NCBI RefSeq assembly: GCF_030704535.1
Contig: NC_081821.1
Location: 9,315,001-9,379,000, forward strand
Direction: 5' to 3'
From: Vitis vinifera
Lineage: Eukaryota > Streptophyta > Magnoliopsida > Vitales > Vitaceae
Length of the DNA: 64,000 nt
Both the position numbers and the translations under genes were made by a program. This document shows, in pieces, positions 18,323 to 62,028 of this stretch (position 1 is the stretch's first letter; each line of letters begins with the position of its first letter). Under the pieces are notes generated by a model. It did not search any database and was not told the origin of the DNA. It was given only the letters and a program-made list of their open reading frames with translations.

Positions 18323-20083
18323 ATGGCCACACCTTCCAGAAGTCGCTCGTCTGCTAGGGAAGAGGAAGATAATTCTGAATGGCGCCAAGCCATCGAGAGA
18401 AGACAGTTGGCAAGCGAGCGACAAGTGCAAGCTCTCCTCTAGGAGACAGCGAGATTGAGAGAAGAAAACGTTGTGCTGCGCATCCAGGCTTCATCGACGG
18501 GGCCTCCCCGTCGTCAGCCTTCAAGAGGCCAGGTAGCAAACTCAAGGCCTGACCCAGAGTCAATATACCCTGGGACAGTAGGAACAATCCCCGAAACATG
18601 CAACGTTAGACCACATGAGCGACACACGCCCACGCACCAAGCTCCCCATGAGGAAAGCTCATACTCTACTCATTTCTCAGTAAAAAGACAACGCGACAAA
18701 AAACCCCAATTGTCAGACGCAATGTGCGCGAGGCTAGGCCCACACGAGACTGGGAGGCCAAGGTCGCCAATAGTCACAACCTAGGGAGCGCACCTTAACC
18801 CCATGGTCACCCCTATGGTGCAAAACGTTCCCTCGCACCCTGACCCTATGGTTAGACCTATGGTGCAGAACGTTCCCCCGCACCAAGCGGTACGACAAGT
18901 TGGGAGAAACCTCCCAAATGAGCCACCTAGTGGCTCCATCAGCAAAAGGTTGGACGACATGCTCTCCACGTTTTTTTGCTCTCATATTATTCATTACGAG
19001 CCCCCAAGGGGATTCCTCGTGCCTAAATTCTCCACATACGATGAGTCCAGCGACCCCTTCGACCATATCATGCATTATCGACAGCTCATGACTCTTGATA
19101 TAGGAAACGACGCGCTGTTATGCAAAGTATCCCCCGCCAACCTACAAGGGCAGGCCCTCTCATGGTTTCACCGCCTACCTCCCAACTCTGTGGACAATTT
19201 CAAGGACCTGTCGGAAGCCTTCGTAGGACAATACTTATGCTCCGCTCGGCATAAGCAGAACATCAACACTCTGCAAAACATAAAAATGCAGGATAACGAG
19301 TCCTTAAGGGAGTTCGTGAAGTGGTTTGGTCAAGCCGTGCTACAGGTAGAGGCTTACAGCATGGATGTTGTCCTGCAGATCTTCAAGCGAAGCATCTGTC
19401 CAGACACCCCATTTTTTGAATCACTCGTTAAAAAGCCTCCTACGACGATGGACGACTTGTTTCGGTGTGCGAGCAAATACTCAATGCTCAAAGATGACGT
19501 GCGAGCAACCACCCAGCAAATCTTGGTTGCTGGACAAGCATCCAAAAGTGGTGCGGAAAGAAGTGTCAAACTTTCGGACTGGCCAAGGCCGTCCGATCAA
19601 AGGCAGGAAGGGCCAAGTTGCCCAGAAATGCCGCCCCTCACACTCCTCTTCATATCCTACGAGAAGCTCCTCCCTATGATCCAAGACCTGTCCAATTTCA
19701 GGTGGCCCAGACCCATCAGAACGGACCCGGCCCAAAGGGATCATAGTAAGAAGTGTGTCTACCATAAGGAGCACGGCCACACTACGGAGACATGCAGGAG
19801 CCTCCATTACTTCGTTGAAAAGCTCATAAAGGCAGGACATTTGAAGCAATACCTCCGCTCAAAGGCCAGAGGTAGAGACGCCTCCCGAAATCACAACTCT
19901 GGAACCCCCAGGGCTCCAGCCGCCCCCAAAGTCATTATAAACTATATTAACGGAGGCCTATTTGACGAGGAGTACGACTCCAAACGAAAGAGACAGAAGT
20001 TGTTACGGGTAGCATTGGTGCGTGAGCGTGTCAACTCCGTCCGGCCTGGGATAACTGGGGGGGAGCCCTCGCCCCATAGATGA
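18323..20083 (+). pseudogene. gag of the Tat element, disabled by stops
   Basis: The frame opens with ATG at 18323 (MATPSRSRSS) and stays in one phase to TGA at 20081-20083, but is broken by TAG at 18440-18442 and TAG at 18782-18784. The first replaces a likely CAG. The open remainder from 18803 (426 codons) contains the retrotransposon gag core (about 19000-19500). It also has a Cys/His cluster of the form CVYHKEHGHTTETC (about 19757-19798), the nucleic-acid-binding knuckle of Tat gags. The role was to form the cytoplasmic particle that packages the RNA. Confidence 0.85.
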
Positions 20084-20120
20084 GACAATCATTTTTCCAC
20101 CAGTAGACCCCACACGGATA

Positions 20121-23100
20121 TTGCGGCCGTACCGCGACGCCCTCATCCTGTCCCTAAAAATAGGAGACTTCGACGTGAGACGCATCCTAGTTGACCCGGA
20201 CAGCTCGACCGATCTTGTACAAGCATCGATCATTAGCCACATGGGGCGTAGTCTCACAGGCCTCAAAAACCCTAGGCAAATCTTGCCCGGATTTAACGGC
20301 GCATCAACTACTTCCTTGGGAGATATTGTATTGTCGGTCCAAGCTGACCCAGTCACTCTCAACATACAATTTTCGGTGGTACAAGATTTATCACCCTTCA
20401 ATGTCATCTTGGGGCGCACATGGTTGCACTACATGAAAGTCATCCCCTATACGTATCATCAAATGGTAAGCTTTCTTACCAAGGATGGACAAGTCGACCT
20501 ATACGGCAGCCAATTAGTCGCTCGCCAATGTTACCAGATAGCACGAGAAGCAGGGACCAGCCAGGAGGATACACCCCTCCCTGAGTCCAGCCATGCACTT
20601 GACCAATAGCAATTATTGAGTCCGACGGACAAAGATCCCTCGGCAACGGATCCCTTGCAGGTGATCCAAATTTCGGAAGAAGGTACTCACCTTACATATA
20701 TCAGTTCCCTTCTAACACCAGAAGAGACCCAGAACATTCAGAACGCCCTCCGACAAAGCCATGACGTCTTCGCATGGGCACATTCTGATATGAATGGAAT
20801 TCATCCCTCCATCGCCTCTCATAGGCTTAACGTCTTGCCAACAGCAAGACCCGTCTAACAGAAGGTTAGACGTTTTCACCCGGACAGACAAGAGATTATG
20901 TGGGATGAGGTTGACAAGTTGCTAGAAATCGGATTCATCAGAGAAGTGGAGTACCCGGACTGGTTGGCAAATGTAGTGGTGGTACCCAAAAAGGAAGGCA
21001 AATGGCGAGTGTGCGTCGATTACACCAACCTCAATAATGCATGCCTAAAAGACAATTTCCCTTTGTCACGGATAGATCAAATTGTGGATTCCACTACTGG
21101 GTAAGGGATGCTCTCCTTCTTAGACGCCTTTTCCGGATACCACCAAATCCCCATGTCCCCGGCTGACGAAGAAAAGACAGCCTTCATAACGCCACACGGT
21201 CTTTATTGCTACAAAGTCATGTCATTCAGACTCAAAAATGTTGGCGCCTCTTATCAGAGACTGATGACGAAGATCTTCAAACCTCTGGTCGCCCGCACAG
21301 TAGAGGTATATATTGACGATATCGTGGTTAAAAGCAAAACCCGGGAGGAACATGTCCTCCACTTGCAAGAAGTCTTCCACCTTTTAAGGAAGTATGACAT
21401 GAAGTTGAATCCTTCTAAATGCGTCTTTGGCGTAAGTGCTGGCAAATTCCTGGGATTTATGGTCAGCCAAAGAAGGATAGAGGTTAACCCAGATCAAGTG
21501 AAGGCAGTCATAGAAACACCACCCCCTAGGAGCAAAAAGGAATTACAGAGCCTTACAGGCAAGCTCGTCGCGCTAGGACGCTTTATAGCCCGTTTCACTG
21601 ATAAACTGCGACCCTTCTTCTTGGCAATACGAAAAGCTGGAGCGAGCGGATGGATAGACAACTGTCAGAGCGCTTTTGAAAAAATTAAACATTGCCTCAT
21701 GCAACCTCCCATCCTGAGCAGCCCCCTCTCTGAGGAAAAATTGTATATGTATCTGACCATATCGGAGTGGGCAATTAGCGTTGTTCTGTTCCGTTGCCCC
21801 TCACCCAAGGAGCAAAAACCTATTTACTACGTCAGTAGAGCGTTGGCGGACGTAGAAACTAGGTATTCAAAGATGGAGCTAACGACTTTGGCTCTTCGAA
21901 GTGCCGCCCAGAAGCTCCGCCCTTACTTCCAAGCCCACCCGGTGGTCGTGCTAACTGACCAACCCCTTTGCAACATCCTGCACAAATCGGACTTAACCGA
22001 AAGAATGCTTCAATGGGCCATAGAGTTAAGCGAATACGGAATCGAGTTCCAACCCAGGTTGTCCATGAAAGGTCAAGTGATGGCTGACTTCGTGCTAGAA
22101 TACTCCCGAAAGCCTATCCAGCGCAAGGAACCAAGTGAAAAAGAGTGGTGGACTTTGCGGGTCGATGGAGCCTCCCAGTCATCAGGATCCGGAGTAGGGC
22201 TCCTGTTGTAGTCCCCAACAGGACAACATCTGGAGCAAGCCATCCGACTGGGGTTCCCCGCCTCTAACAATGAAGCAGAGTATGAGGCCATCCTATCCGG
22301 ATTGGACCTCGCCCTGGCTCTATCAGTTTCCAGGCTCCGGGTCTATAGTGATTCCCAACTTGTGGTAAGGCACGTCCAGAAGGAATACGAAGCTAAGGAT
22401 GCACGCATGGCGCGATATCTGACTAAAGTAAGGGACACCTTACAACGGTTCACCGAATGGACAATCGAACAAATTAGACGAACTGAAAATGGATGTGCCG
22501 ACGCCCTAACAAGCATAGCTGCTTCCCTCCCCATCAAAGAAGCCATATTATTGTCTATACATGTGCAAGCCAACCCTTCCGTCGCGGAAGCCTCCACTTG
22601 CAATACCATTGAGGCAAGTCAAGCAGACGACCAAGAGTGGACGAAAGACATTATAAGGTACCTCCGGACAGGCACTCTGCCTGAAGAGCCCAAGCAGGCA
22701 CACAAGATCCGGGTGCAAGAAGCCTGTTTCACCCTGATCGGGGGGCACTTGTACAAATGGTCCTTTACAGGTCCCTATCTCAGGTGCCTAAACCACTCAG
22801 AGGCCTTGTATGTTTTAGCTGAGTTGCATGAGGGGGTATGTGGGAACCATTCTAGAGGTCGGTCTCTGGCGCACAGGGCCCATTCGTAAGGATATTACTG
22901 GCCCGTGATGAAAAAGGATGCGGCAACCTATGTCAAAAAATGTTACAAATGTCAAAGGCATGCCCCCATACCACATATGTCGTCGGAGACGTTGAAACCA
23001 ATTTTAGGCCTCTAGCCCTTCTCGTAGTGGGGCATGGACATAGTAGGACCCCTACCAACCGCAGCCGCCCAGAAAAAATTTCTGCTCGTCGCCACGGATT

Positions 23101-29612: not shown

Positions 29613-29620
29613 CCTCCAAG
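29613..29620. repeat. 8-bp target duplication of the hAT element, left
   Basis: CCTCCAAG, identical to 34858-34865 at the other end. Eight bases is the hAT-superfamily length. Confidence 0.93.
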
Positions 29621-29945
29621 CATGGATTGAAAAATCGGAAAATGTCGCCGATATTTCGGAGAAATATCGGTTATCGGGCGGCATCGAAACGATAATCGGC
29701 ACCGATTATCGATTGACGGAAAAATCGGCCAAAAATCGGCAAAATCGCCGATATATCGACGAAATATCGGTGGAGGACCGAAAAATCGGCGAAACATCGG
29801 CGAGTGGAGCCACGCGCGGCGAAGACGACAGAGGACAGCAAAAAATCGGCGATTAATCGGTAAAATCGGCGATTTTTTGCCGATAAAATCGCGATAAATA
29901 GGCGATTTTTTGAAAAAATCGGCGATTTTTTTGAAGATTCCCTGC
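29621..29945. repeat. Left subterminal ATCGG array of the hAT element
   Basis: I count 13 ATCGG and 4 CCGAT in about 325 bp, often as AAAATCGGCGAT. Subterminal short repeats are known binding sites for plant hAT transposases, so this is the likely transposase landing array. It is GC-richer than the flanks and contains many CpGs. Confidence 0.8.
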
Positions 29946-30205
29946 TTTTGATCTGACGGCCAATTTTGAATTTTTGAGGATCTGATGGCCCAGATTTCAC
30001 CCGTGTATGTAAAGGCCTCCAACGGTCAGATTTGTGATCCAATGGTGGAAAATCAATCTTGACTTTATCCAAGGGCTATGGAGTGTTTCCAACGGTTATA
30101 TGAAGATCTAATGGTGAAATTTGAACCAAATTTTGATCCAACGGTTAAAATTAATTTATAACGGCTAGTTTGACCATCCAACGGCTAGTTTGACCAAAAA
30201 AATTC

Positions 30206-30327
30206 CTATAAATACCCACATTCCATTTCATTTCATACATCAAAATTCTTATATGATCTAGCAAAAATTTTTTATTTTGAAAATTTGGTGGTGAAGGGGA
30301 TTAACTCCAAGTCAAAGGCTAATTAAG
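30206..30327 (+). promoter_or_regulatory. Transposase promoter and leader exon
   Basis: CCTATAAATACCCAC (30206-30220) is a good TATA box. About 30 bp on, a leader exon would start and end at 30327 before GTATGT. The leader intron would run to the AG at 30827-30828, three bases before the ATG at 30832. Inferred from consensus sites only. Confidence 0.65.
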
Positions 30328-30430
30328 GTATGTCTTACCTTTTATAAAATTTATTTTATTATGCATAATTAAATTTTATTTGTTATATATAGTTTAATTG
30401 ATATTTTCTAATTCATATGGAAATGTAATT

Positions 30431-30780
30431 GTAATGTTTATCTATTTCATATATGCATAATTCAATTTTAATTTTTATTAGTAATGATTCTTATCAATTT
30501 CATGAATATGCAAATTTAATTTATTTTAATTTAATTTAATTCTTATCAAAATTTTATTGTAATGTTTATCTATTTCATATATGCATAATTCATTTTTAAT
30601 TTTAATTTTTATTAGTAGTGATTCTTATCAATTTCATGAATATGCAAATTTAATTTATTTTAATTCTTATCAAAATTTTATTGTAATGTTTATCTATTTC
30701 ATATATGCATAATTCAATTTTAATTTCAATTTTTATTAGTTCTTATCAATTTCATGCATATTAAATTTCTTACATGTTTT
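30431..30780. repeat. Three tandem copies (~125 bp) in the transposase leader intron
   Basis: The unit GTAATGTTTATCTATTTCAT...starts at 30431, 30559 and 30683, with periods 128 and 124. The third copy is incomplete. Copies are highly similar, so the duplication is young relative to the element. Confidence 0.85.
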
Positions 30781-30831
30781 ATCTTTAATAATTTTAAATT
30801 TGATATTAGTTTCATAATTCAATTTTAGAAA

Positions 30832-33800
30832 ATGGCTAGTGAAAGCGGTACCATGGGTCGAGATCCTTGTTGGAAATATTGTACACCTATGGAAGGGAAC
30901 AAAAATGGAACAATATGCAATTACTGTGGGTTGGCAATAAAGAGTGGTGGGATTACTCGTTTTAAATTTCACCTATCACATACAGACCCTAATTCAAATA
31001 CAAAAAAGTGTCCTAACGTGCCTCCAGAAGTGAAACAAGAAATAAGACGACTTATAGAGCAAAGAAATAAGGCAAAAGCGAAGAAAGCTGTTGATATAGA
31101 AGAGATTCGAGCAGAACTGCGAGACACAATGGGAAGAAGACATAGGCATTTAATTGATGAGGACGATGAGGAGAACCTTGGTGGTGATGGTGGTGGTGAT
31201 GATGGTGGTGGTGGTGGTGGTGGTGATGATGATGATGATGGAGATGATGATGTGTATATGTATCCGGCTGACATGCACCCTGATGAGCGACATGCTTATA
31301 GAGAGGCAGTTCGAGCATCAAAAGCTGCTGAATGGAATCGACAACAACAAGAACATTTTATAAAAGGCAAAAGAAAAACAGGTATAATATTAATTTGAAT
31401 TATTACTGTTTCTTATCAACTTTATCAATAATATTAAATTAACATATATGTTTAATTTTAATAATTATAATAGGCGAGTCTTCACATCCAACCAATCCAA
31501 CAACAAGGCAAATGCGAAAATCGCAAAGTGTTCGATATTCAGATGCATCACTGCCTGATGCACCCTCATTGTACAAATCTTCAGCAGCAAGACAGAAAAC
31601 TGTAAAAAATCTTTTCAAAGGTGGTGCCATCAAGGAAACCATGGGACGTTTGATCAGTAAGTTCTTCATATATGAGAGTGTTCCGCCAAGTAAAGCAGAC
31701 TCTCACCACTTCAAGAACATGATTGTTGGTGCACAACAAGCAGGTAATTACTATAATTTTAAAAGTTGTATTTATTTGAACAATATCATTACTATTTATA
31801 TAGTATGATTGACACAAATGTTCTTATATGTTTTAATTATATATGGATGGTAGGTATGGGTATAGAACCGCCGTCTCCTTATGAAATCAAACACAAGTAT
31901 TTGGATATGGAGTACAAAGACATGGAAGCTTATGTCAATATTCAAAGAGAAAAGTGGAAGACTTATGGATGCACGATTATGTCTGACGGATGGACTGGGC
32001 CCACGAAATTAAGCATAATTAATTTCATGGTATATTCAAAAGGTAGCACAATCTTCCTCAAATCCGTTGATGCATCAAATAATATAAAGGACAACAAATA
32101 CATATATGGTTTGTTGAAGGATGTGATCAAGGAAGTTGGCAAACAAAATGTGGTCCAAATAGTTACAGATAATGGGTCGGCATTCGTGAAGGCGGGGAAG
32201 TTGTTAATGAAGAAATACAATCTTTATTGGACTCCGTGTGCAGCACATTGCATCGACTTAATGTTCGAAGACATCGGTAAAAGGACGAGTGTTGCAGATC
32301 TGATTACAAAGGCTCGAAAGATAACCAACTTCATTTATAACCATAGTTGGTTGCTTGCACAGATGCGGAAGGTGTGTGGTGGAGACATAGTTCGTCCTGG
32401 AGCAACAAGATTTGCAACCAATTATATAGCCCTTGACAGTCTTTTGAAAAAGAAAGCAAACTTGAAGAAAGTGTTTATCAGTGATGAATGGGCACAACAC
32501 AACTTAAGTCGCACATTAATCGGCAAAGAGGTTGAATCACTTATGTTTGACCATGCGTACTGGGAAAGAGTGGGAAAGTTAGTGTCAATATATGAGGCGC
32601 TATACACAGTTCTTCGCATTGTCGATTCAGAAGTTGTTCCTACAATGCCATTTGTGTACGAATTGATTCGAGTTATGAAAGAGAACCTCATTCGACTTAA
32701 TGCTAAAGAATGGGTGTTAGAAATAATTGCAGATCGTTGGGATAGAACTCTTAAACATCCTCTTCATGCAGCAGGTAAGTATTATTCATCTTTGAAATTT
32801 ATTGGTATTTAATATGTTTCTTTCATAAAATTCTAATTTTACATTTCTACTTTACTATTGTAGCATTCTTTCTTAATCCAAGATTTCAATATAAACGTGG
32901 AGTTGGTACTGATCCTGATCTACTTCAAGCTGTTCATGAAGTCTTTGCGAAATTAGATCCTACATCAGAAGGTCTTAGTCAATTTGGAAATGAGGTAAAT
33001 TATTAGAGTTATAATATAAATTAAATAATTGAATTTCATTTACTCAACTTTTTCACTTTCAATTATTTAATATGTAGATTATACTATTCCGAGATGCAAA
33101 AAGAGGATTCGGTGATCGAGCAGCGATTGCTTCGAGGTCAGAAATGGTTCCCGGTGAGTATTATTTGTGAAATAATAATTCATTTCATTAGCATATTATT
33201 GTAACTTTCCAATATAAGTATTGATATCATTTATTTGGTTGTAGCTGAATGGTGGTTCATGTATGGACATCACGCTCCTACATTAAGAAGGTTGGCCATC
33301 AAGGTTTTATCGCAAACTGCATCATCTTCAGCTTGTGAGAGAAATTGGAGCACGTTTGCCTTAATTCATACAAAACAAAGAAATCGGCTTGCTTACCCGA
33401 TGCTCCAACAATTAGTTTTCTGTTATTATAACATGAAACTAAAGATACGTGACATGGAAGCAGAACAAGACAAAGTTGCAGAGAAAGATTACCTCGATTT
33501 ACTTGACATTGCAACTGAGGTTGGTGAAGAAGAAGATAACCAATTGTTTCAATGGGTTAGACCTCTTCATCTAGATGATGAAGATGGAAATCCCGACCCA
33601 CGAATTGCCGCACATGTCCGAGAAGCAGGTGTTGATGTTGATCGAGTGTTATCCGAAGAAGTTCATACTGATAGTTTCAGCCAAGACACGAGAGATTCAT
33701 TTCAACAAGGAATTTCTCAGCCGGCAGTCACTTCTCGACCTTCTTTTGACTCCACGAGTGTTGAACATAGTAGTAGACCTAGTGCTACTGGTACTTCTGC

Positions 33801-34464
33801 TTCCGGTTATGATGGTTCAAGAGGAGAGGGGACCAATGATGGTAGCGACCCTGGAAATGATGAAGGGGATGTTAGACAACAACAACAAAGTGGACAACCA
33901 TTGGCATTTACTTGTGAAGATGATTTCACACATTGTACTCAAGATGAAGACCACGGCTCTAGAAGAGCCGGTCCAGGTGTTGGAGCCATTGGAAAGCCAT
34001 ATAGAGGAAGACAACGAAGGATGATGCCATACAACGAGGACTCATTGTCGGCCAGTTTTGAGTCGATGAGTGTAGAGACTCAATTCAGTGATTCATCAAA
34101 CGAAGCCAACATTTATGCCCCTTATGCAATGAGTTATGGTCAGCCTCCTCAAAATCTTTCAAGTTCCACTGATGAAGAGTATGAAAGGTATAACTATCCT
34201 TCTTCCACACAAATGCCATACTACCTTCCACATCAGCTGCAACAACAAGGATTTCAAACGAGCACATGGGAAAACCCTGGATTTCCTATCCATGGACAAG
34301 TTGTTGGTAGGACTCAAGAAATTTATGCATGGCATGTTCGTACATACAATCAATACTATCGAAACTCCATGTCCTGGTATGAATATTGTCTTCAACAAGA
34401 TGGGCTCCCTTCATCTAACAATAACAATATGATGGAACCACATCGATCTTCATTTTGGTATTAA
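30832..34464 (+). CDS. hAT transposase, 6 coding exons, 1055 aa, intact
   Basis: Exons: 30832-31381, 31474-31743, 31854-32774, 32864-32994, 33078-33153, 33245-34464. All introns are GT-AG and phases agree; total 1056 codons with stop. Residues ~10-65 form a BED-type zinc finger (CNYC ... TRFKFHLSH). Residues ~115-140 are a Gly/Asp tract. Residues ~274-430 match the DUF659/hAT core, with catalytic candidates Asp318 (SDGW) and Asp379 (VTDNGS). The C-terminal dimerisation block follows (residues ~650-720: WWFMYG, SQTASSSACERNWS), with Glu681 as third catalytic candidate. A ~330-residue hydrophilic, Gln/Ser-rich tail extends beyond the dimer domain. It excises and reinserts the element in the nucleus. 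Residue assignments follow the general hAT pattern and were not aligned to a structure. Confidence 0.92.
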
Positions 34465-34613
34465 GGACCATTGCAATGTCATATGTATTATGTTTATGTG
34501 TAAATTGTTTTCATTTAATGAAATCAAATATTTCTTAACTCAATTCTAACTTTCTAAGTGTACAATTCCAAATTTCATATTTTTTATTCTTCAAATCCAA
34601 GTATCGTAAACTA

Positions 34614-34857
34614 TTTACCGATATTTTTTTCTTTGACCATATTTATGTCAATTACACTTATAAAATAACTTTAACATGCATATTCTTGCTTATTTTATCA
34701 TTCTTTGGCTTTTTTTAAGCATTCCCATCAATTTTGGATAATTTTTGTCTCACCGATATTTGATGAAAAATATCCACCGATATTTCTCCGATATTTCCGA
34801 TATATCCGTAAAATCCAAGTACCGATATATCCGTGTTTACCGATATTTCAATCCTTG
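34614..34857. repeat. Right subterminal CCGAT array of the hAT element
   Basis: Seven CCGAT and no ATCGG, mostly as CCGATATTT or CCGATATAT. The orientation is inverted relative to the left array, as expected for mirrored transposase sites. Confidence 0.8.
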
Positions 34858-34865
34858 CCTCCAAG
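34858..34865. repeat. 8-bp target duplication of the hAT element, right
   Basis: CCTCCAAG, a perfect match to 29613-29620. Confidence 0.93.
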
Positions 34866-37265: not shown

Positions 37266-40200
37266 TCAAGCTGGCTTGAAAATGTCTTTCATACTTAGCT
37301 TACAAGTTATGCTATCGAGCTGCCCCTTGTGTAGTCCCTTGGTAAAAACATCTGCAAATTGCTTGATTGTAGGGATATAAAGCATGCAAATCAGTCCACC
37401 ATCTAACTTCTCTTTGATAAAGTGTTGGTCAACTTCTATGTGCTTGGTTCTATGATGTTGGAATGGATTATGTGTTATATTGATCCTTGGTTTATTGTCA
37501 CAATAGAGCTTCATAGGCTGAGGTCTTCAAGTAAATTTTTTCGCCATAAAAGTTCACAAATCCCATGAGCTACTGCTCTAAATTCAGCCTCTGCACTGCT
37601 TCTAGCTACCATGATTTGCTTCTTGCTTCTCCAAGTCACTTGGTTGCCTCTAATAAATGTATAGTAGCTTGATGTGGACCGTCGATCTGTCATGCTTCTT
37701 GCCCAATCAGCATCGATGTGAGCTTCGATTCGTTAGTAGCCATGATTCTCAAATGGTAAATCCACTCCTGGTTTCCCTTTTAAATACTTGAGAATTCGAT
37801 CGATTCCTTTAAAATGTTCTTCCCCTGGTGAGTGCATAAGTTGACTCACAGCACTTACAGCAAACGCTATGTTCGATTGAGTATGAGCTAGATAAATGAA
37901 TCTCCTAACTAACCTTTGAAACTGTTCCTGATTCACCACCTTATTTGCACTTGCTAGTTGTAGCCTAAAATTGGGCTCCATTAGGGGTTTCCACTGGTTT
38001 GCAACCAAGTAAATTGGTCTCTTCAAGTAAGTCAAGTACAAACTTTCTTTGTGTCACAAATATTCCCTTCTTAGACCTTGCAAACTCCATGCCAAGGTCT
38101 TTTACTTCTAATTCTCTTGCATGGAACTTCTTCAAGACCTTTAGTTCCCCTTCATCATCACCGGTAAAGATAATATCATCCACATATACAATGAGTATGA
38201 CTATCTTACCCGTTGTTGAGTGCTTGTGGAACAACGTATGATCAGCTTGACTTTGTCAATATACACCTTTTGATAGCCTTGGTGAATTGATCAAACCAAA
38301 CTCTAGTGATTGTTTTAGTCTATAGAGAGAGTTCTTGAACTTAAATACTTTTCCAGCTCCAAGCACGCTTCCTAAACACGATGGTAGGTCCATGAAAACC
38401 TGCTCCTCTAGCTCTCCATTTAGAAAAACAGTCTTCACATTGAGTTGATGCATCAACCATCTCAAATTTGTAATAAGAGATAGTAGTACTTGAATTGAAT
38501 TAATCTTTGCAATAGGGGCAAAGGTTTCTTGGGAGTCAATTCAATTGCCCTCCACTTACCCTCCACTTACTTGGGGATGTCGTTGGGTGCTCCCTTCAAG
38601 TTTGTGGTAGCTTGGGATGAAGTGGAGGAGAGATTCCCTAAGATATTGGCTATGTGGAAATGTCAATATATTTATAAGGGAGGAAGAATTACCTTGATTA
38701 GAAGCACATTGTCTAACTTGCCTATTTATTTCATGTCTATTCTACAATTGCCAAGAGAGGTCAGATTAAGGATGAAGCAGATTCAAAGAGGTTTCCTGTG
38801 GGGAGGTGAGGCCTTAGGACAGAGAGCTTACTTAGTAAGATGGGCAACAGTGTGTCTTAAGAGCCTTTTTGTGCTCAATAAGGCCCTCCTTTGCACATAG
38901 AGTTGGCGGTTTGCGAATGAGAGAGGGGTTTTATGGAACCAAGTAATTAGGGGGAAATATGGGGAGGAAAAAGGAGGGTGGTGTTCTTGGGATGTTAGAG
39001 AAGGGTATGGTGTAGGGTTGTGGAAAGCAATTAGGAAGCTTGGGCACATCGTTAGCAGTAGACTCCTTTGTGGTGGGGAATGACCAAAGGGTGAGTTTTT
39101 GGAAGGATATTTGGTGTGGGGCTACACCTTTATGTGCTTCTTTCCCTTCCTTATTTGCCTTAGTTGATCCCAAAGAAGCTTGAGTGAAGGATGTTTGGAC
39201 CAGGACAGTAGAGGGGAAGGTCTTCTAATACGCTTGTGTGGTCAGAAGGTGATCGTGGAAAAGGTGGATAGGGTGCAGTGAATGGAAAGAAATGATGGAA
39301 TTTTCTTGACAAAGTCGCTTTACAAGGCCTTAGAGACAAACGCTTTAGTTTTGTTTCCAATGAAGATCATTTGGAAATCATGTGTACATCCAAAAGTAAG
39401 TTTCTTTGCATAGGAAGCATCATAAGGCAAAGTTTTAACCTTGGACCAAGTTAAAAAGAGGGGATGGGCCTTAGCAAATAGATGCTATTTTTGTCAAGCG
39501 GATGAGGAATTCATTGACCACCTCCTTCTCTGTTGTGAAAATACAAGGACATTGTGGGAGATGCATTTCACTCTTTTTGGGGTGTCTTTGGTGTTTCCTT
39601 TTCGGTTAGGGAAACCCTCTTGGGTTGGAATGGATTCTTTGTGGGGAAAAAACGCAAGATAGTTTGGAGAGCGGGTCCTCTTTGCATTTTTTGAACAGTT
39701 TGGAAGACAAGGAATAAAATCGCTTTTGAAGATGTGTGGACATCCAATGGCTAAAAACTTCTTTTTTTAACTCACTTTGATCGGAGACTAAATTGTCTAC
39801 AAAAGATGGTCCATCAACCTTTTTTAAGTTCATTGATTAGGTGGGTTCCCATTGAGGGAGGGGTTGTTTTTTGTATATCTTTGTAGACGGTTTTTTTTTG
39901 TTTCAGATGTTAGGGAGTGAGTGTTTCCCTTTCTGTTCTGTACATCTTGAGTCGCTATTTTAGCACCTCTTCACAATACAATACTTTTTCTTATCAAAAA
40001 AATAATTTTGGGTGAATCCTTTGGCTGCAAGCCTTGCCTTGTACCTATGAATGCTTCCATTTGCCTGGTATTTAATCGTGAACACCTGCTTACAACCCAC
40101 AATCCTTTTATCTTTTGACGATTTAATAATTTCCCTGAGTATCATTCTTCTTAATAGCATTCATCTCTTCCATGATTGTTGTCCTCCATTTAGTGTGACT

Positions 40201-41982
40201 TAAGGCTTCCTGTATAGTTTTAGGCAATGCAACATTAGAGAGAGTAAACGTAAAGGTTCTATAGTTCTGAGAAAGTCTATGGAATGAGACATACTTTGCA
40301 ATAGGATGCATAGTGTAGGAACGTGCGCCCTTTCTAAGTGCAATGGGAACATTAAAGTCATGTGAAGCACCCTCTAAACTACTAGATTTAGGAATTGAAC
40401 ACGGGTTTGGCAAAGAGATACTTGTTTCATCTAAAGGGCCATCATTTGGAGGAGTTTCTTGGCTTATGTTCGACTGTGACTCTCTATTTCGATTATTTTT
40501 ACTTCAAGAGTAGGACACAACTTAGTTTGACTTTGTTTCTATGGTGGTTATGCTAGTGAATTAGAATCTATAATGTTTGGTCCATTGGGTAAAGGCTGGA
40601 CAATGGATAAAGGCTCAATAAGTAACACTTCTAAATGGGATTTTTGTGGGTGACATGATAATGACATGGGTAAGGGTTCCATCACTTCCCAAAAAGGATC
40701 TTTTCTCTCAATACTCTCTCCTTGATGATGATTTTTGGTGAAATAAGGTTGGTTTTCGAAAAATGTCACATCCATAGTCATAACAAGTTTATTTGAAATA
40801 GGATTCTAACATTTGTACTATTTTTGTTTAGGAGAATACCCAACAAATACACACTTTTTTGATTGAGAATCAAGTTTAGAAGGGTTTTGTTTATGGATGT
40901 GGACAAATGCAGTGCAACCAAAGATTTTCAAAGGTAGAGAAGTAAAGATGCAAATATGTGGGAAGATGACCAGTAATCTATTTGGAGGAGTGCCAAATTT
41001 CAAGACTCTAGTGGGCATCCTATTGATTGAGTAAGATGCCATGGGAAAAGCCTCACCCCACAAGTATTTTGGAAAACCCATATAGCGAACATTATAGACA
41101 TAGCCACCTCAAGTAAATGATGGTTTTTCTCTCAACTATATTATTTTCAAAGCATGTGGATTGGTGGGTAATGCCTTTTTCTTTAATGTATCTACCAAGA
41201 ATAGAGTTGAAATATTCCTCTCTATTGTTAGTTCTAGAGACTTGTATTCAAGTGTGGAACTAGGTTTTAATCATGAAATAGAAGTCTTTAAACATTTCCT
41301 CGGCATCAAATTTTTTTTTTTAAGAGATACACCCAATAGACTCTAGTATGACCATCAATGAATGTAATTAATCACTTGGTTTCGCTTATATTTGTGACTC
41401 AAGAAGGTCCCATATATAATTGTGAATTTGGTAAAATGGTTTGGATTCTTGATAAGGATGAGGCGAAAAATGAACATGGTGATATTTAGATAACTGGCAA
41501 ACTTCACATTGAAATATCAAAGGATTCAAATTTTTTAATAGAATTGGACATAATTGTTTCAAATAAGAAAAGTTAGGATGACCTAACCTGTTGTGTTATA
41601 CCATTATTTCATCTTTAACAAGAATAAAAATCACACTACTACTCGCAGCTTGAGCTTTTCCACCTTTGAGGAAGTTGTTATCAAAATAATAGAGTACATT
41701 AGCCTTCCTAGCATTACCAATCATCCTCCTTGAATGTTGGTCGTGGAATTCACAATTAGAGTCACAAAATTTTGCAAAACAGTTAGAATTTTTGGCTATT
41801 TTGCTAACTGACAAAAGATTGTAAGAAAGATTAGGAACATGGAGAACACATTTGAGAAATAGATTTTCTGAAATAAATATAGAACCTTTCCCTGCAACCA
41901 GAGACAAGCTACCATCCGCAATTCTAATTTTTAAGTGACCATAACATGGAGAATAAGTGGTAAATACATAGGATATCTTCAA
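37266..41982 (-). pseudogene. Copia pol remnants, split by a LINE insertion
   Basis: On the minus strand in order: a protease/pre-integrase block (41982-41596, with VLHVPNLSYNLLSVSKI). Then a late integrase segment (41081-40818, WGEAFPMASYSINRMP and FGCTAFVH). RT starts at 40413-39985 (ends GFTQNY) and resumes after the LINE at about 38540-37965, with the catalytic YVDDI near 38190. RNase H with the C-terminus is at 37740-37266 (SRSKKQIMVARSSAEAEF-like, then FIKEKLDGGLI). Stops and frame changes are frequent. The order integrase before RT identifies Copia. Confidence 0.85.
38540..40003 (+). mobile_element. 5'-truncated L1-type LINE inserted in the Copia element
   Basis: Opposite in orientation to the Copia element and interrupting its RT between GFTQNY and ETFAPIAK. 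The coding remnant covers the end of the LINE reverse transcriptase ([27 protein letters not shown]) and the zinc-binding RVT domain (RCYFCQADEEFIDHLLLCC). It contains several frame breaks. It ends with TTTTTCTTATCAAAAAAA, the A-rich LINE tail. A matching LINE at 48294-49957 shares the 3' end. Confidence 0.85.
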
Positions 41983-42265
41983 CTTCAGGTGGTTTCTTTA
42001 TGATATTTGAACACAAAGACAAATTGAGAATGAATTTTTTATTCTCATTACTACAATGTACATAGGATCTACAATCATATTTATAGACACAATGGTCTAA
42101 ATCTATTTAAGGGAATAACCTATTTACAGGACATAATTAAAATTCAAATTCAAATTCAAAGAATAAAATATTCTAAAATATTCAAAGAATAAAATATTGT
42201 AAAATTTCTAAATATGGACAATACTTCGTAATTTTCAGCAGTGAATCTGAACCAGTCTTTCCACA

Positions 42266-45700: not shown

Positions 45701-48700
45701 ACTGAAAAAGAGCATTTATGTCTATGCCAAAGCAAAGTAAACTAAATATCTTATGAAGAAAACCGAAATAATGTACAAGCTAAGAGAATTATGCATGTCA
45801 AGCAGGTACAAAATCCCTGAGTCACCAAGGATGCCAAGTGTCTAGGCCCTCACTTGGCTAAGTGATCTGTTTCTTAGTAACATGCAGAATCTGTAGTTTT
45901 AGGGCAGCTTTCCATTTGTTTTGATGGATACAATCTGTATTTGAGATTGTACATTTGCACATATGTGTCTGTTAATATATTTGCTTATCCAAGAGTTGGT
46001 GGAATGGTGAGGAATTTGGGATAGATTTATTTGAGGACATCGTTTCACTTTGGCTGATTGAGTTATATTGATTAAGAAATTTGAAATTTTCAAATTTTTA
46101 CCTAGCATACCAACAAAAAAAGAAATGTTATGAACTTTTTTTTTTCATCTTTCTTTTGGGGGGTGGCCTTGGTTGATCTTTTGTTTTTTATTTTTCTTTT
46201 CTTTAGGCTTTGGATGTTAGTCCAGACCAAATTGAGAGCTATGGTTTTGAATCATATGGACCCAATAGATTGTTGGTTTTCCAAATCTTTAGGTTACCTT
46301 TGTCAAGTTGAGTTGGAAAGAGCACAAATAGCTTGTTCTTCCTTCCCCTTCCTTTTCCTGTGGTTCATCATGAAGAGTTTTCAGTTAATTTTCCCCTCGT
46401 CTTCCATTCATTATTGATAGAAATATTTTTTGTGGACAAGTTATTCTAGCTAATCACTTATTTCTCTTAGTCAAATTTATTAGGTCACATTTCCTGAATG
46501 CTTCAGGAAATCAAACGGTAGGTATAAATTATTCCTTTGCCTTTTTATCAAAATTTTCCCTTCGATTGGAGTGGGTGCATTTACTTCTTGTGCGATGTTC
46601 ATATCCTTCAGTTTCTGGTTACATCTCAATATTTTCTGGGCCACTAGATTCATGACTATGATTTTCTACAACTTATTACATTAAATGTTAAACTGCTAGA
46701 TTTAAGGAGAGCCACATTTTGGTTAGTTTTTATCTGTTGTCCTGTGGCTGTGCAGAGATTGTTTGGACCAGCTAGTATCTTCTGGGTCAACCCTCACCCC
46801 TCAAATTCATCACAGACACAAGAAACTCAGATGTTATTATAAATGTGCCAGATTTGAAATTGTTGGGTGGTTTGTGGTTGGTGTCAGCACATTTTCCAAA
46901 TTTCTTTTGATCAGACATTTACCACATATTTGGAGCTATGGTTCTTGAATATCAGGGAAAACATATTCTATGAGAAGCCAAATTTTTATATCTGTTGTGT
47001 TTAATACTCCTACTTGTGGAATAATGTAATTAGGAAAGATTATAAGTATATAATTTTCTAATAAGGAGAGGATCAAGACAATCCCATAATGAAGGGGATT
47101 TGATAGAATTAGGTGAGGAAAATTTCTATTTTTTGTGTTAGGAGTATTTGTATAAATATGTGGGATGTACAAATTGAAATGGAGGAAGAAATTTATTTTC
47201 ATTTACCTTCCGATTCTTCTTATTCTACATGGTATCAAAGCCTTAGGCTCTTAAATTTGGAAAGAATTTTTTTGGCCTTCATTGCTAAATTGAACATCAT
47301 AGTTGGCCTTCATTGTCAACTTGACGGTTTCCTTCTCATTTGAGTCAACCTTCATTGTTGACCTTAAGGTTTCCCTCTCGTCTAAGTTATGCCATTGCTG
47401 CAAACACAATCTCGGTACTCGCACTGCAAACCCAGATCATGAACTCAACAACCGGAGACCTCAGTCGTTGTCCTCATGCCGTTGTCCTCACGCTAACACC
47501 CTTGTTCACAAAATCAAAATCATGCCCTCGACTTCGCACTAGTATAGATCTTCCTTCTTGCAAGCCTCACGCTCCTTGTGATCAAATTTAGTAGCACTCT
47601 TACTAGCCCTATCCACCTCGGCTTTGCTCGTCTTCTTCGGCATCATTGATCTCTCTCACAAGTTTTCTAAGGCTCTGCCAATGATGACAATCCTCCTTGC
47701 ACTACTGGAAACAACAAAGGATAGCGTCTGCTATCATTCACCGTCGAGGAGATCATGCTGCCAGCCCTTGCCATCAGCTTTGTCTTTGCCTTGTGTTGCT
47801 GTCGGCGTTGCCGTTGTCGTTGCCCTAGGATCTAGTTGTTGCCATCAGCTTTGCCTCTACCCCACGACAACACCTCTGATTGCCAATGAGGGCTCTAATA
47901 GGAGTATTTAAAGTTTGGCTATTATACTAGTTAAGTGTTTAGATTAGGTTATTTAAGCCTTATAGTAAAATAACAAAATAATAATAACTAAACAAAAAAC
48001 AAAAAAAAAAAAAAAAGAAGGAAAAAGAGATATGTTAAAGGTATTAGAAACCACTGCTCAATTTGAAAAAATGACAACTGGTTGCAATGGAGGGCAACCA
48101 AAGGATATTGGACAAGCACACTTGTCTTTTGTTCAACCAATTGAAGAAAGATCCTTGAAACAAGGCAAATTCAACCAGGAGGAGATTGAAAAACTAAGAA
48201 CTTTGTTGAGAACTCTTGAGAAACCTTTGCGGACCTCATCACCGATACTTTCAGGTAAGTTTCCTATTTCCATTGGATTAAAAGCTTTAGATGTGGTTTG
48301 AGGCCGCTTCGGGAATGAGAATTAACTTGGATAAGAGTGAACTTATTCCAGTAGGGAGGGTTGTGGATATTGATGATCTTGCCTTGGACTTTGGATGTAA
48401 AGTGGGTAGTCTCCCGTCCACGTATTTGGGTCTTCCTTTGGGCGCTCCGTTTAAGTCAATGGCAATGTGGGATGGAGTGGAAGAGCGGTTCCGCAAAAGA
48501 TTGACTATGTGGAAGAGACAATACTTATCCAAGGGAGGAAGAGCAACCTTGATCCGAAGTACTTTGTCAAACCTTCCCATTTACTATATGTCTGTTCTAA
48601 GTTTACCAAGTTCAGTTAGAAGAAGACTAGAACAAATCCAAAGGGATTTTCTTTGGGGTGGTGGCAGTTTGGAGCGTAAACCACATTTAGTAAGATGGAA

Positions 48701-51700
48701 GGTGGTGTGCTTAAGCAAGAAGAAAGGGGGTTTAGGGATCAAATGCCTTTCCAATCTCAATAAGGCACTCCTTTCTAAATGGAATTGGCGTTTTGCAAAC
48801 GAGAGAGAGGCTTTGTGGAATCAAGTGATTAGAGGGAAGTATGGGGAAGATAGAGGGGGTTGGCGCACGCGGGAAGTGAGGGAGGCGCATGGCATGGGGC
48901 TCTGGAAAGGGATAAGGATGGACTGGGATTTGGTGGGTGCGCGGATATCTTTTAGTGTTGGCAATGGGAGGAGGGTGAGCTTTTGGAGGGATAGATGGTG
49001 TGGGGATGCCCCTCTGTGCGATTCGTTTCCTTCCATTTATGCCTTATCGATTGAAAAGGAAGCTTGGGTGGCGGATGTTTGGGATCCCTTGGTGCAAGGG
49101 GGTAGGGGGGGTTGGAACCCTTGTTTTTCAAGAGCTCTAAACGATTGGGAGGTGGAGGAGGCGGAATTATTTTTGGGGTGTCTTCACGGGAAGAGAGTCA
49201 TTGGAGATGTAGATGATAAGGTAGTTTGGACTGAAACAAAGAGTGGCATTTTCTCGGCTAAGTCTCTATACCTTGCTCTAGAAGCGGACTGCCCTAGTTG
49301 TTTCCCATCTAGCTGCATTTGGAAGGTGTGGGTACAACCCAAAATCAACTTTTTTGCGTGGGAGGCCGCATGGGGTAAGGCGCTTACCCTAGATCTTGTT
49401 CAGAGAAGAGGATGGTCATTGGCTAATAGATGTTACATGTGTATGGAAAAGGAGGAGACCATAGATCATCTGCTTCTCCACTACTCCAAAACAAGGGTCT
49501 TATGGGAGTTGCTTTTTTCTTTGTTTGGGGTGTCTTGGGTGATGCCGTGTTCAGTTAGAGAGACTTTGCTTAGTTGGCAGACTTCTTCTGTGGGCAAGAA
49601 ACACAGGAAAGTGTGGAAGGCGGCGCCCTTGCATATTTTTTGGACGGTTTGGAAGGCGAGAAATCGTTTAGCCTTCAAGGATGATGATATATTAATACAG
49701 TGGTTGAAATATTCCTTTTTATGCTCGCTTTGGTCTGAGGCAAAGCTGTTTATAGTAGAATGCCCTCAAACTTTGGTGAATTTTATAGATTGGGTGAGAT
49801 CATTGTAAGGTTTTGGGCCTTTTGGTTGGTGGGTCTCTTATATGTTTTTGGTCTCTTTTGGTGGCGGGTGTATAGGTTTGTATACCTTCCATAGGCTGTA
49901 TACCTTGAGTCGCTCTTTTGGCGTCTCTTTATAAATGAATTTTCTTTACTTATCAAAAAAAGCCTTAGATGAAACCTTTGTTAATTCATGGGTTATAGAT
50001 TCAGATATCATAGATCATATGACTCATTCGACACACCAATTTCACAATTATAACCCTTGTCCAAGCATTAGGAAAATAACCACAACTGATGGTTCATTAA
50101 CCACCATTGTAGGTGTAGGAGATCTCCACATTAGTTCTACACTCACATTTAGAAAAGTGTTTCATGTTCCAAAGATATCTACTAATCTTGTCTCTATACA
50201 AAAGGTTACAAAAGATATGGGTTGTAATGTGATTTTTTACCATGCTCACTATGTATTTCAAGACTAGAATTTAAGGAAGATAACTAGACTTGCTAAGGAA
50301 CGGAATGGGCTATACTACCTTGAGACACCAAGCAAATCAGAGGTGTTGTGAGTGTAGAACTAATGTGGATATCTTTATGCATATTCACAGTCCAAAAAAG
50401 GGAAAATTGGACCCAGGAGTAGTCAAATATGTTTTTGTGGGATATTCGTAAACTGAAAAGGGATATAAGTGTTACCATCCACCATCCAAATTTTATTTTT
50501 TTTGTCTCAACTGATGTTACTTTCAATGAAAGTGAGTATTATTTTCCCACTTCTTATATTTAGGAAGAGAATTCCATCGAGAAGACAAGGATCAAGACTT
50601 CTGTTTTAGTGATGCCTTTCTCATCGACCTTACTGACCTTCCTAAAGCGTCCGATCCAATATCTATACCATCCTTTGAACCCGAGTCATCCATTGAGCTT
50701 GCTCTTGAGAATCAAATGATTGGCAAAGCGTACTCAAGGAAGAAAGCTACAGTTCCTCGACTTATACGAGTCCAGAAATCTAAACCAACTTTTAGAAATG
50801 AGGTAACAATCTTTCATCCTCCCTTACAAATTAAGTTAGAACTTCAGTCTGAAAAACCCATAGACTAAAACCTCCCTATTGCCATCAGGAAGGGAATGAG
50901 AGAATGTACTAAACATCCTTTGTATCCACGTTCCCATATTGTATCATTCAAAAGGTTGTCTCCTCCCATAAGAGTTTTCTTACAAGTTTGAAAAATATTT
51001 ATATTCTTACCGCTCTGTCTGAGACTTTATTTAATGAAAATTGGAGACAAGTCATGAATGTAGAAATGGAGGCCTTGGAGAAAAATTAAACTTGGGAGTT
51101 GGTAGATTTGCGTGCAAGAAAAAGACCAGTGAGACATAAGTGGGTCTATACTATTAAGTATAGAGCAGATGAGACATTAGAGAGGTGCAAGACAAGATTG
51201 GTGGCTAAAGGATATAGAGATTGGTGGTTAAAGGATATACTCATACATATGGCGTGGATTATCTGAAGACATTTGCCCCAATTGTCAAGATGAACACAGT
51301 TATAGTTTTGTTATCATTGGCAGCAAATTATAACTGGTATCTACAATAGTTCAATGTCAAAAAGGCATTTCTGAATGGAGATATGGAAAAAGAGATTTAT
51401 ATGGAAGTCCTTGTTGGATTTGGAAGTGATCTAGCCACTAAAAAGCTGTGTTAATTGAAGAAAGCTCTATACAGGCTGAAATAGTTTTCAAAGGTCTGGT
51501 TTGAAAGGTTTGCTAAAATAATGAAAAACATGGGATAGAGACAAAGTCAAGGAAATCATATGTTGTTCATCAAACATTCAGATTCAAGGGGAGTTATAGC
51601 TCTTCTAGTATATGTGGACAACATCATTGTGACAAGAAATGATGAAAAAGAGAGATAGACTTTGAGGCAATGCTTGACTAAGGAGTTTGAGATTAAAGAG

Positions 51701-54589: not shown

Positions 54590-55391
54590 GAACATTCTTG
54601 GGGGATTTGTCATCTTGGCACAAATACCCCACATGAACACCTGTTTGTCCTTCCCATGATTGTATTACAATTTACAATTTCTCATTTGCCTGTAAAATCA
54701 CAACTGTTTAAGAATTATGCCCTGGTATACTTGGTACAGGGGATCAAATGAAAATTTGAAAGAACAGGAAAATCCATAAGTAATTTCAGTGATAAGTAAA
54801 ATCAATTACTTGTAGTTTTACCTACATGTAAAACTGTAAGAAATTAATGACTAAATTCAGTAATATATGTTGTCTTGTATTTCTAATTTTTCAAATTTTA
54901 TTTAATCTCCTCTAAGCTTGTTTTTCATTTTCTCCATTTGTATGTACTTGTCAGAGAAAAATGCATGCTTGAATTAACTGATGAAGAATTTTGGATGGAA
55001 GATGGACAACCACTTTCCCGGCCGGCCAAATCTTGACCTTCCAATCTATCTTCAAATTTGTATTTTGTGGCCGCCTGTTGGAAAGGTCTGAATCAATCCG
55101 CAAATTCTCAGTATTAGTATAATGTTCTTGGAACCACCAAACACTCAATCTGCTTGGATTTGGTCCTGTTCTATCTGCCGGCGCATAATATTTAAATGCT
55201 GGTTTCTGCCTTTTGGGCCTATTTCTCTATTCACAAGTTACAAACCGTCATTGTAAAATCAGCCAAATGGCATTCAAAACTGATGAAGAAATCATATCAA
55301 CAATGCTGGTTCCTTCTTGTTCCACAGTTCCAATGATTCAAGTCTACCTCATATACAAGAGCTCTGCAGAAACTGATCTCATTTACGGGAA
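54590..55391. other. UBC 3' UTR and receptor-kinase promoter region
   Basis: No frame of interest. The first part should be the UBC 3' UTR. GCATAATATTTAAATGC at 55182-55198 contains a TATTTAA box about 195 bp upstream of the next start codon. Confidence 0.45.
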
Positions 55392-57793
55392 ATGGATCGA
55401 ATTCCCATCTGGGTTCTTTCTGGTTTGGTTTTACTTCTCCTCCCAGTGGGAAACTCAGAAGAAGATGAGGTTAACCGGTCTTTGATTCAATTCATGACAA
55501 ACATTTCACCTGGAAATGCAGGAAGAGGCTCGAATTGGGGTTGGAATATGAACTCAGACCCCTGCACTGACAAATGGGAGGGGGTGACATGTGACTCCCA
55601 GTCGAAATTTGTGAGGAAAGTAATTCTTGATGGACTCAATCTCGATGGAATTCTTGATGCAAAGTCTCTATGCAAAGTGAAAACACTTGCAGTATTGAGC
55701 CTGAACAACAACAGTGTTGTTGGAAAGTTATCCGAAGGGATATCAAGCTGCAAGCGATTGACCCACTTGTATGCAAGTGGAAACCATTTCTCAGGCGAGC
55801 TTCCCCAGAGTCTTTCCCGGTTGAGTAACTTGAAAAGGCTTCACATATCCAACAATAACTTCTCCGGCGTGCTGCCAGATTTGCCACGAATTTCAGGCTT
55901 AATATCATTCCTTGCTCAGAACAATCAACTCAGTGGGGAAATACCAAAATTTGATTTCTCCAACCTCCAGCAATTCAACGTCTCCAACAACAATTTCAGT
56001 GGTCCTATTCCAGATGTCGATGGACGTTTCTCTGCCAGCAGCTTCTCTGGTAATCCAGGATTATGTGGACCACCGCTTTCAAACACATGCCCACCATCTC
56101 TACCTTCTAAAAATGGATCAAAAGGTTTCTCCAGCAAGCAGCTTCTCACCTACTCAGGGTATATAATCCTTGGCCTGATTATTGTGCTCTTCCTTTTCTA
56201 CAAATTGTTCAGAAAAAAGAGGCCGAAAGGTGAAAAGGTTGAGGTTATAAAGAAGGGAGTGAGCATGGAGTCTAGTAGCAACAAGCCCAGCAGTGTTTCC
56301 AGCCAGCTAAAAACCAGTGACAATAGATCGGAGTATTCAATAACATCTGCTGAAGCTGGAATGACTTCATCATCGCTTACAGTTCTTTCAAGTCCGGTGA
56401 TAAATGGGTTGAGATTTGAGGATTTGCTCCGAGCTCCTGCTGAATTGATTGGGAGAGGAAAGCATGGAAGCCTCTACAAGGTTGTGCTGGAGAACAAGAT
56501 GGTCTTGGCTGTGAAGAGGATCAAAGATTGGGGGATTTCTAGTCAGGATTTCAAGAGGAGAATGCAGAAGATAGATCAAGTGAAGCATCCAAATGTATTG
56601 CCTCCCCTCGCTTTTTATTGTTCCAAGCAGGAGAAGCTCCTTGTGTATGAATATCAGCAAAATGGCAGCCTCTTCAAGCTTCTCTATGGTAACTTCATTT
56701 CCACTATGTTCATTGTAGAATTTCATCACAGCTTACTTTCTGGTACTAAAAAGCAATCTTAGGGGGCCTGAGAGAGGGTTCAAACAAAATGGAAATAAAA
56801 GTTGAAAAGGAGAACTAGAAAACAAGGCTTTTCAGAAATCATACTTTTGTGGTTATGTCCACCGTCATGAATGATGCTGAAGCGCTTGTACTAGAAAAAT
56901 GACCCAGTAAGTAATCATGAGCAGAAGCATATACAGTCTAGAACTGAAGTCATTAAACTCAAACCCCACAACTGGCTAGCTGAAAAACCTAATTGATTTC
57001 TATGTTGGGGAAAAACAAATTACCCAACACAAAAATTTGTCCCAGAACTTTGAATATTCCCCATATTTGAGTTATCAGTACTGCTCCACTCCCTTGATCT
57101 GCCCTTTTTCCTTTTTGATTTTTTCCTTCTTCTATCCTTTTTTTTATCCAAGTGTCTAAACATTCGAATGTAAAGGAGATAATAGCACAAGTATCCTAAT
57201 GCATCTTAATTTCAGGAACCCAAAATGGCGAAGTATTTGAATGGGGAAGCAGACTAGGTGTTGCAGCTAGCATTGCTGAGGCATTGGCATTCATGTACAG
57301 TGAGCTCCATGACGATGGAATTGCTCATGGAAACCTAAAATCCACAAACATCTTGCTGGGAAAGGACATGGATCCATGTATCAGCGAATATGGGCTAATG
57401 GTGGTTGAAGACCAAGACCAACAATTCCTTGCCCAAGCTGAGAATCTCAAATCCAATGGTCCAAGTGGATACACTGCATATAGCACCTTCAAGGTAGATG
57501 TTTATGGTTTTGGAGTGATTCTTCTTGAACTGCTGACAGGGAAGCTTGTCCAGAACAGTGGCTTTGATTTAGCTAGATGGGTGCATTCAGTGCTTAGAGA
57601 GGAATGGACAGCGGAAGTTTTTGACAAGGCCCTGATTTTGGAAGGTGCAAGTGAAGAGAGGATGGTGAACTTGTTACAGGTTGCACTGAAGTGCATAAAT
57701 CCTTCTCCCGGAGAGAGGCCAACCATAAATCAAGTTGCTGGAATGATAAACACAATAAAAGAGGAAGAAGAAAGATCCATAGTCTCCATATGA
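55392..57793 (+). CDS. LRR receptor-like kinase (LRR III type), predicted pseudokinase, 624 aa
   Basis: Exons 55392-56688 and 57216-57793, GT-AG, phase 1. A signal peptide (about 1-22) and LRR N-terminal cap with a Trp/Cys signature (DPCTDKWEGVTC) are followed by about five leucine-rich repeats (75-215). A single membrane span (TYSGYIILGLIIVLFLFYKLF, 253-273) and a basic stop-transfer come next, then a Ser-rich linker and a kinase fold (about 340-610). The Gly loop IGRGKHGSLYK and Lys375 (AVKRIK) are kept. The catalytic HRD is HGN (470-472) and DFG is EYG (490-492), so no phosphotransfer is expected. This is common in the LRR III subfamily, where such proteins act as plasma-membrane signalling partners. 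Short LRR number and the single intron in the kinase domain also fit. The ligand is unknown. Confidence 0.9.
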
Positions 57794-59818: not shown

Positions 59819-59866
59819 ATGTCTAGAATTCCATCTCAACTCAAGCAAAAAGATGATATATTGATC
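59549..59866 (+). promoter_or_regulatory. Cluster of upstream ORFs before the ATL start
   Basis: Short frames begin at ATG 59549 (13 codons with stop), 59720 (12) and 59752 (8). A further frame begins at 59781 and runs out of frame past the main ATG at 59819. If transcription starts upstream of 59549 these could reduce translation of the RING protein. The transcription start is unknown, so this is a conditional inference. Confidence 0.4.
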
Positions 59867-61956: not shown

Positions 61957-62028
61957 GTATACTTTCTTATCATGGTTGCTTGATTTTGATGGGAAATAGG
62001 AAGTAAAGCCCTGTGTTTTGAACTATTG

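Follow-up and report, generated by a model that had tools for sequence, protein, structure and literature searches.

A structurally intact DUF659-type hAT transposon of a recently amplified family in the grapevine genome

The window analysed here is a stretch of 64,000 nucleotides of Vitis vinifera DNA (assembly GCF_030704535.1, contig NC_081821.1, positions 9,315,001 to 9,379,000 of the forward strand), and all window positions are counted from its first base. A hAT transposon of 5237 bp lies at 29621-34857. It is very probably a structurally intact, autonomous cut-and-paste element of the plant type that carries a DUF659 core, and a member of a family that has been amplified very recently. 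An earlier, sequence-only reading had taken the element to be complete and autonomous in structure, and this was borne out by its exact ends, its target-site duplication (TSD) and an open frame identical to that of four other copies. The features of the element, including its terminal inverted repeats (TIRs) and untranslated regions (UTRs), are as follows.

29613-29620, no strand: left TSD CCTCCAAG, an exact match to the right TSD
29621-34857, + strand: whole hAT element, 5237 bp, exact ends
29621-29638, + strand: left TIR CATGGATTGAAAAATCGG, from TIR pairing and the genome pattern count
29621-29950, + strand: 5' subterminal region with ATCGG and TCGGCGA motifs and short palindromes, from motif reading and alignment
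30207-30214, + strand: TATA-box-like TATAAATA
30328-30828, + strand: presumed leader (5' UTR) intron with tandem units of about 124-128 bp, from the sequence alone
30832-31381, + strand: exon 1, BED zinc finger and Gly/Asp repeat (splice model, Pfam)
31474-31743, + strand: exon 2 (splice model)
31854-32774, + strand: exon 3, DUF659 core with D318 and D379 (splice model, Pfam, phmmer)
32864-32994, + strand: exon 4 (splice model)
33078-33153, + strand: exon 5 (splice model)
33245-34464, + strand: exon 6, the greater part of the hAT dimerisation domain including E681 (splice model, Pfam)
34465-34857, + strand: 3' UTR and 3' subterminal region, in which the motif CCGATAT recurs, from motif reading
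34840-34857, - strand: right TIR CAAGGATTGAAATATCGG, from TIR pairing and the genome pattern count
34858-34865, no strand: right TSD CCTCCAAG, an exact match to the left TSD

The inverted ends match as had been claimed, CATGGATTGAAAAATCGG and CAAGGATTGAAATATCGG pairing at 16 of 18 positions. Besides the two TSD copies, the window has one more occurrence of the 8-mer CCTCCAAG, at 61602, outside the element. A scan of the window for identical 8-mers 0.5-20 kb apart gave 19 pairs whose enclosed ends show inverted matches at 13 or more of 18 positions, and the ends of the element rank second among these. The first is a palindrome-flanked pair at 1857 and 18160, 16.3 kb apart, where a palindromic GTCCGGAC stands beside an inverted match of 17/18; it is possibly part of an inverted repeat pair bracketing a low-GC stretch at 12-18 kb. 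Since the window holds 19 such pairs, ends of this quality are not unique there and the genome provides the decisive test. The genome searched comprised 495.6 Mb in 21 contigs. Allowing at most one mismatch, the 18-base end pattern was found at 193 + 192 genomic sites, 385 together, against 1 + 1 for the reversed control.

A search with the whole element was scored for the best 29 of 2223 candidates, and all counts for these copies are therefore lower bounds biased towards the best matches. Perfect TSDs, each different from the others, were found for 23 of the 29, which strengthens the earlier claim of a perfect 8-bp duplication; two more have a TSD with one mismatch and four have no recognisable end pair. 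In an alignment of 25 copies the 20 leftmost bases of the element are identical in 12, the ends being misplaced in this alignment on the left for L022 and L027 and on the right for L019. The TATA box of the earlier reading is intact in 24 of the 25. The presumed leader intron has its donor GT kept in 23 copies and its acceptor AG in all 25, and its length, measured over 30328-30827, ranges from 156 to 839 bp. The 5' subterminal region is presumed from its motifs to be the region bound by the transposase.

The predicted six-exon frame codes for 1055 amino acids with a terminal stop only, and five of five introns are GT..AG; the transposase free of stops and frameshifts which had been proposed is thus upheld under predicted splicing. 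Pfam matched DUF659 at residues 280-430 (E 7e-53) and Dimer_Tnp_hAT at residues 645-713 (E 1.7e-13, 50.6 bits with a cut-off of 21.4), in agreement with the dimerisation block claimed earlier. The claimed BED finger was also recovered, with a zf-BED score of 20.6 bits which is exactly the cut-off and with C29, C32, H47 and H50 all there. The C-terminal extension in exon 6, about 340 residues, has no Pfam match. The catalytic residues of the Hermes transposase are D180, D248 and E572. A phmmer search against PDB aligned residues 646-709 with Hermes, and the ranges of the 8edg alignment place E681 on Hermes residue 572. D318, in a DGWT block, and D379, in VTDNGS, are the candidates for the catalytic pair of aspartates. 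Among the 29 copies D318 is kept in 28, D379 in 28 and E681 in all 28 that reach this residue. Damage to a catalytic residue, which had been named as evidence against an active element, was not seen in those residues that could be aligned. Another aspartate, D451, seven residues before TRFATNY, was considered for the second catalytic Asp and appears a less likely choice, the stretch of Hermes before CPTRW being without Asp when read by eye.

The earlier reading had also proposed a younger insertion, for which a lack of similar copies would have been an objection. With 29 relatives scored in the same genome this objection does not apply. An open coding frame with five GT..AG introns is present in 11 of the 29 (L010-L016, L018, L019, L023 and L028); L017 has a changed splice donor and the 17 others have stops, frameshifts or truncations. 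The window copy, L010, and L011 to L014 lie on five contigs and are identical over 3168 coding bases. The coding sequence of L015 agrees with theirs letter for letter save that 12 bases of the Gly/Asp repeat are deleted in frame. In L016 and L018 this repeat is slightly changed in length, also in frame, and each of the two has one substitution. These eight youngest copies (L010-L016 and L018), 5.2-5.3 kb long, occupy eight contigs, one each. Any two of them are separated by 1-11 substitutions across the full element, with a mean divergence of 0.00098 per site (1-7 substitutions and 0.00063 outside two repeat stretches), in line with a younger insertion. Between the window copy and L014 there is a single substitution, and their 5' arrays differ by 33 bp. 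Assuming between 5e-9 and 1.3e-8 substitutions per site per year, the eight would have a mean common age of about 24,000-63,000 years, with a wide error.

In the eight youngest copies, which are unaffected by the misplaced ends, the palindrome-rich 5' array near 29868 comes in six lengths and the aligned 5' region ranges from 307 to 411 bp; each of the eight has a 3' region of 393 bp. In L018 the array corresponding to window position 29868 consists of tandem 20-base units CGATTTTTTCAAAAAATCGG, nearly palindromic, and has more units than the window copy. Slippage during gap repair would be a reasonable cause of these changes in length and of those in the presumed leader intron.

The history of the coding sequence was examined using a tree of 27 sequences, L037 and L038 being excluded as incomplete and codons 110-150 as repeat-rich. 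The tree forms a ladder that ends in the eight young copies. The tips leading to broken copies carry 212 synonymous and 722 non-synonymous changes, a ratio of non-synonymous to synonymous rates (dN/dS) of 0.91, together with 82 new stops, and 673 of their 934 changes are C>T or G>A. The internal branches carry 62 synonymous and 139 non-synonymous changes, giving a dN/dS of 0.60, which differs from the broken tips (Fisher p 0.018). This suggests that copies decay near-neutrally after insertion and that the lineage which produces the copies tends to keep its protein. Compared pairwise with L010, dN/dS is 0.27 each for L017, L019 and L023, 0.59 for L028 and 0.41-0.94 for 15 decayed copies.

Several points weigh against the reading of an intact and capable element. 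The dN/dS contrast was counted by parsimony on a midpoint-rooted tree, and although the removal of two root-adjacent internal branches gives 40 synonymous and 59 non-synonymous changes, dN/dS 0.39 and p 2e-4, these two were chosen after the counts had been seen and the strength of the contrast depends on this choice. Two new stops fall on internal branches, which is unexpected for a strictly functional lineage and could have arisen from parallel C>T changes in the tips. The catalytic candidates of the earlier reading stand unevenly: E681 is placed on Hermes E572 by alignment, D379 falls on index 172 of 4d1q, residue 248 by an offset of 76, in a stretch with a score below zero bits that carries little weight of its own, and D318 is presumably the first catalytic Asp by family convention only. 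A phmmer search of PDB with exon 3 alone returned chance matches and no hAT structure, and a structure predicted for exon 3 alone was discarded, its mean predicted local distance difference test score (pLDDT) being 39.8. When the flanks of the window copy were joined they matched as two halves at their own locus only (both of the two candidates scored). The site is therefore single-copy and no empty site is visible in the same genome. Finally, the tips leading to intact copies carry 7 synonymous and 27 non-synonymous changes, a ratio near 1, and 26 of these 34 changes are C>T or G>A. Given that intact copies are no longer selected one by one, a tip ratio near 1 is to be expected. The excess of C>T and G>A suggests that even the intact copies are methylated and quiet.

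The best surviving alternative, to which we would give a little less than an even chance, is that the element is intact but permanently silenced, the burst being over, all copies methylated and the window copy young without being mobile. The 26 of 34 changes just described are the signature expected of methylated DNA. Furthermore, in the passages of PMC9097378 on transcribed TIR elements, transcripts that cover the frame of the transposase are given for three hAT-7 loci only, in grapevine callus after mock treatment, and the term hAT-1 (which would also match hAT-10) is absent from the main text of that paper. Against permanent silencing, the near-zero divergence of the eight copies, and of the 25 short elements described below, implies very recent transposition at any plausible rate. 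Recent mobility is thus well supported by sequence comparison, and the window element may still be mobile today.

Short elements with the same ends accompany the family. Among the matches listed, 15 inward pairs of 18-bp ends lie 1.49-1.53 kb apart, all on C1 to C9. A search with one 1.5-kb element gave, among the best 40 of 2679 candidates, 25 full or near-full copies, the query included, at 96-100% identity, the next place being a partial match at 85%. Four of five loci tried yielded whole elements of 1501-1512 bp, 3-21 substitutions apart, and the fifth, L046, had no right end. Two of the four have perfect TSDs, one matches at 7/8 and one is cut off after 6/6 matching bases. Their 18-bp ends are letter-identical to those of the 5.2-kb element. 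BLAST found about 92% identity over the first 183 bp and 80-81% over the last 430 bp or so, with an unrelated middle. When L042 was aligned directly the shared 3' part corresponded to window positions 34379-34857 and took in the last 86 bases of exon 6, where 65 of 79 aligned bases are identical. The 1.5-kb elements are non-autonomous and probably dependent on the 5.2-kb element. That they are moved instead by a different, related transposase we consider unlikely, though by no means negligibly so: the restriction of the likeness to the two terminal parts would fit such an enzyme, and against it the 18-bp ends have the same letters and both sets of elements are young.

Transposition is not the sole conceivable source of the five identical coding sequences, which might also be due to segmental duplication, to gene conversion or to an error of assembly. 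For 13 copies as much as 1.4 kb of sequence on either side of the element was compared. Between different copies there were three matches of 221-382 bp at 76-86% identity (one between L011 and L012 and two between L012 and L017), none at corresponding places; in three of the 13 copies the two sides of the same copy share repeats. Since the matches do not correspond, the copies are separate insertions and not duplicated segments. The host sequence of L016 was read by eye as a long interspersed nuclear element (LINE) from its likeness to the LINE frame at 48291-49808 of the window. When the flanks of L016 were joined with a single TSD between them, they gave an uninterrupted 100% match at C15:10934801-10935037, and ten further places matched at 98-100% (among the best 40 of 598 candidates). 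This match to a related empty site directly shows the limits of the element and the 8-base duplication. The TSDs differ, the flanks fail to match at equivalent positions and L016 has a precise related empty site, which makes such an origin of the identical copies very improbable. A domesticated host gene merely resembling a transposon, for which the open frame and the constraint on internal branches could speak, is hardly credible and for practical purposes refuted by the many copies with exact TIRs and TSDs on different contigs, by the many decayed copies among them and by the report that putative domesticated hATs of grapevine are single copy without TIR and TSD (in the part of PMC2528002 that treats them).

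An intact autonomous element would be expected to work as follows. A spliced transcript would give a transposase with a BED finger and a DDE core, which would bind the TIRs and the ATCGG-type subterminal repeats, excise the element and reinsert it with an 8-bp staggered cut. Copies would be gained by transposition coupled to replication and by gap repair, and the same transposase would mobilise the 1.5-kb elements in trans, in the way that Ac mobilises Ds. Most copies would be silenced after insertion and would then decay as C-to-T changes build up, with one lineage remaining functional.

A further proposal is that the 5.2-kb hAT drives the young 1.5-kb dependent family as a currently active pair of the Ac/Ds kind in a clonally propagated crop, with the 5' array as a counter; this we put forward tentatively, as doubtful on balance. 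If it were true, the array, which varies in length much more quickly than the other parts of the element, could run as a counter of transposition or gap-repair events. Somatic insertions in woody crops create sports and clonal variation and, to our knowledge, these crops have few active autonomous DNA transposons whose partner family has been identified. The eight autonomous and 25 short copies offer concrete loci for studies of polymorphism and transcription.

Other features of the window and genome were noted in passing. The window also contains a retrotransposon at 18785-22889, whose matches to gag and to reverse transcriptase/RNase H are distributed among several frames, Copia-like fragments on the - strand at 37733-41997 (frames read by eye), a zf-RVT match in the LINE-like frame on the + strand at 48291-49808 and, at 55377-61983, gene-like frames comprising pieces of a leucine-rich repeat (LRR) receptor kinase, one RING finger protein and one frame giving an RDR2 PH-like match. 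In a genome census of DUF659, 26 of 150 matches listed belong to a second group with an open frame of 311 amino acids, seven of them at 188.5 bits, and the many identical scores make this group possibly a second, larger recent burst. A census of the hAT dimerisation domain gave, among the matches listed, 20 places at an identical 101.7 bits, several in a frame of 677 amino acids. A further 677-aa frame at C14:21998162 (match 21998162-21998413) lies inside the interval of a transcribed hAT-7 locus given in PMC9097378; this overlap may be due to chance, the coordinates there being from another assembly (12X).

Among described grapevine families the element possibly belongs to one of the Hatvine families already catalogued. 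The sections of PMC2528002 that deal with hAT elements describe families with intact frames and matching expressed sequence tags (ESTs), including Hatvine-1 (VIHAT1) and Hatvine-10 (hAT-10_VV), families being assigned by more than 80% similarity to a Repbase representative. Compared by description, these two resemble the present element in being multicopy, with an 8-bp TSD and few potentially functional frames (7 of 125 copies of Hatvine-1 and 9 of 67 of Hatvine-10). They are about 5.5 kb long, as against 5.2-5.3 kb for the eight youngest copies here, and their TIRs are 18 bp in Hatvine-1 and 11 bp in Hatvine-10, as against 18 bp here. The same sections report that 10 of 11 tested transposon insertions were polymorphic among cultivars, the exception being Hatvine-7.1, and describe hAT-7 as a 3.9-kb family; according to PMC9097378, callus reads cover the frame of hAT-7 loci. 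A literature search found no paper joining DUF659 with a grapevine hAT transposon or with a hAT transposase bearing a BED zinc finger.

Beyond grapevine, significant similarity to Hermes (PDB 8edg, 6dww, 4d1q) is confined to the dimerisation region, where E681 corresponds to E572. A frame in the same genome named DAYSLEEPER-like by eye, L001, has the hAT dimerisation domain as the element does and, unlike it, no VTDNGS block when the frame is read. In maize, Ac/Ds consists of an autonomous element and short elements with the same ends, an 8-bp TSD and subterminal repeats. The elements described here share this arrangement, short elements having the ends of the autonomous one together with the 8-bp TSD and subterminal repeats, and they differ from it in the DUF659 core, the six coding exons, the long C-terminal extension and the TIR sequence. 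Together the 5.2-kb and 1.5-kb elements have the anatomy of an Ac/Ds pair, from which movement in trans may be inferred. The element is an ordinary, if unusually fresh, member of the hAT superfamily and the kind of system it represents is well known.

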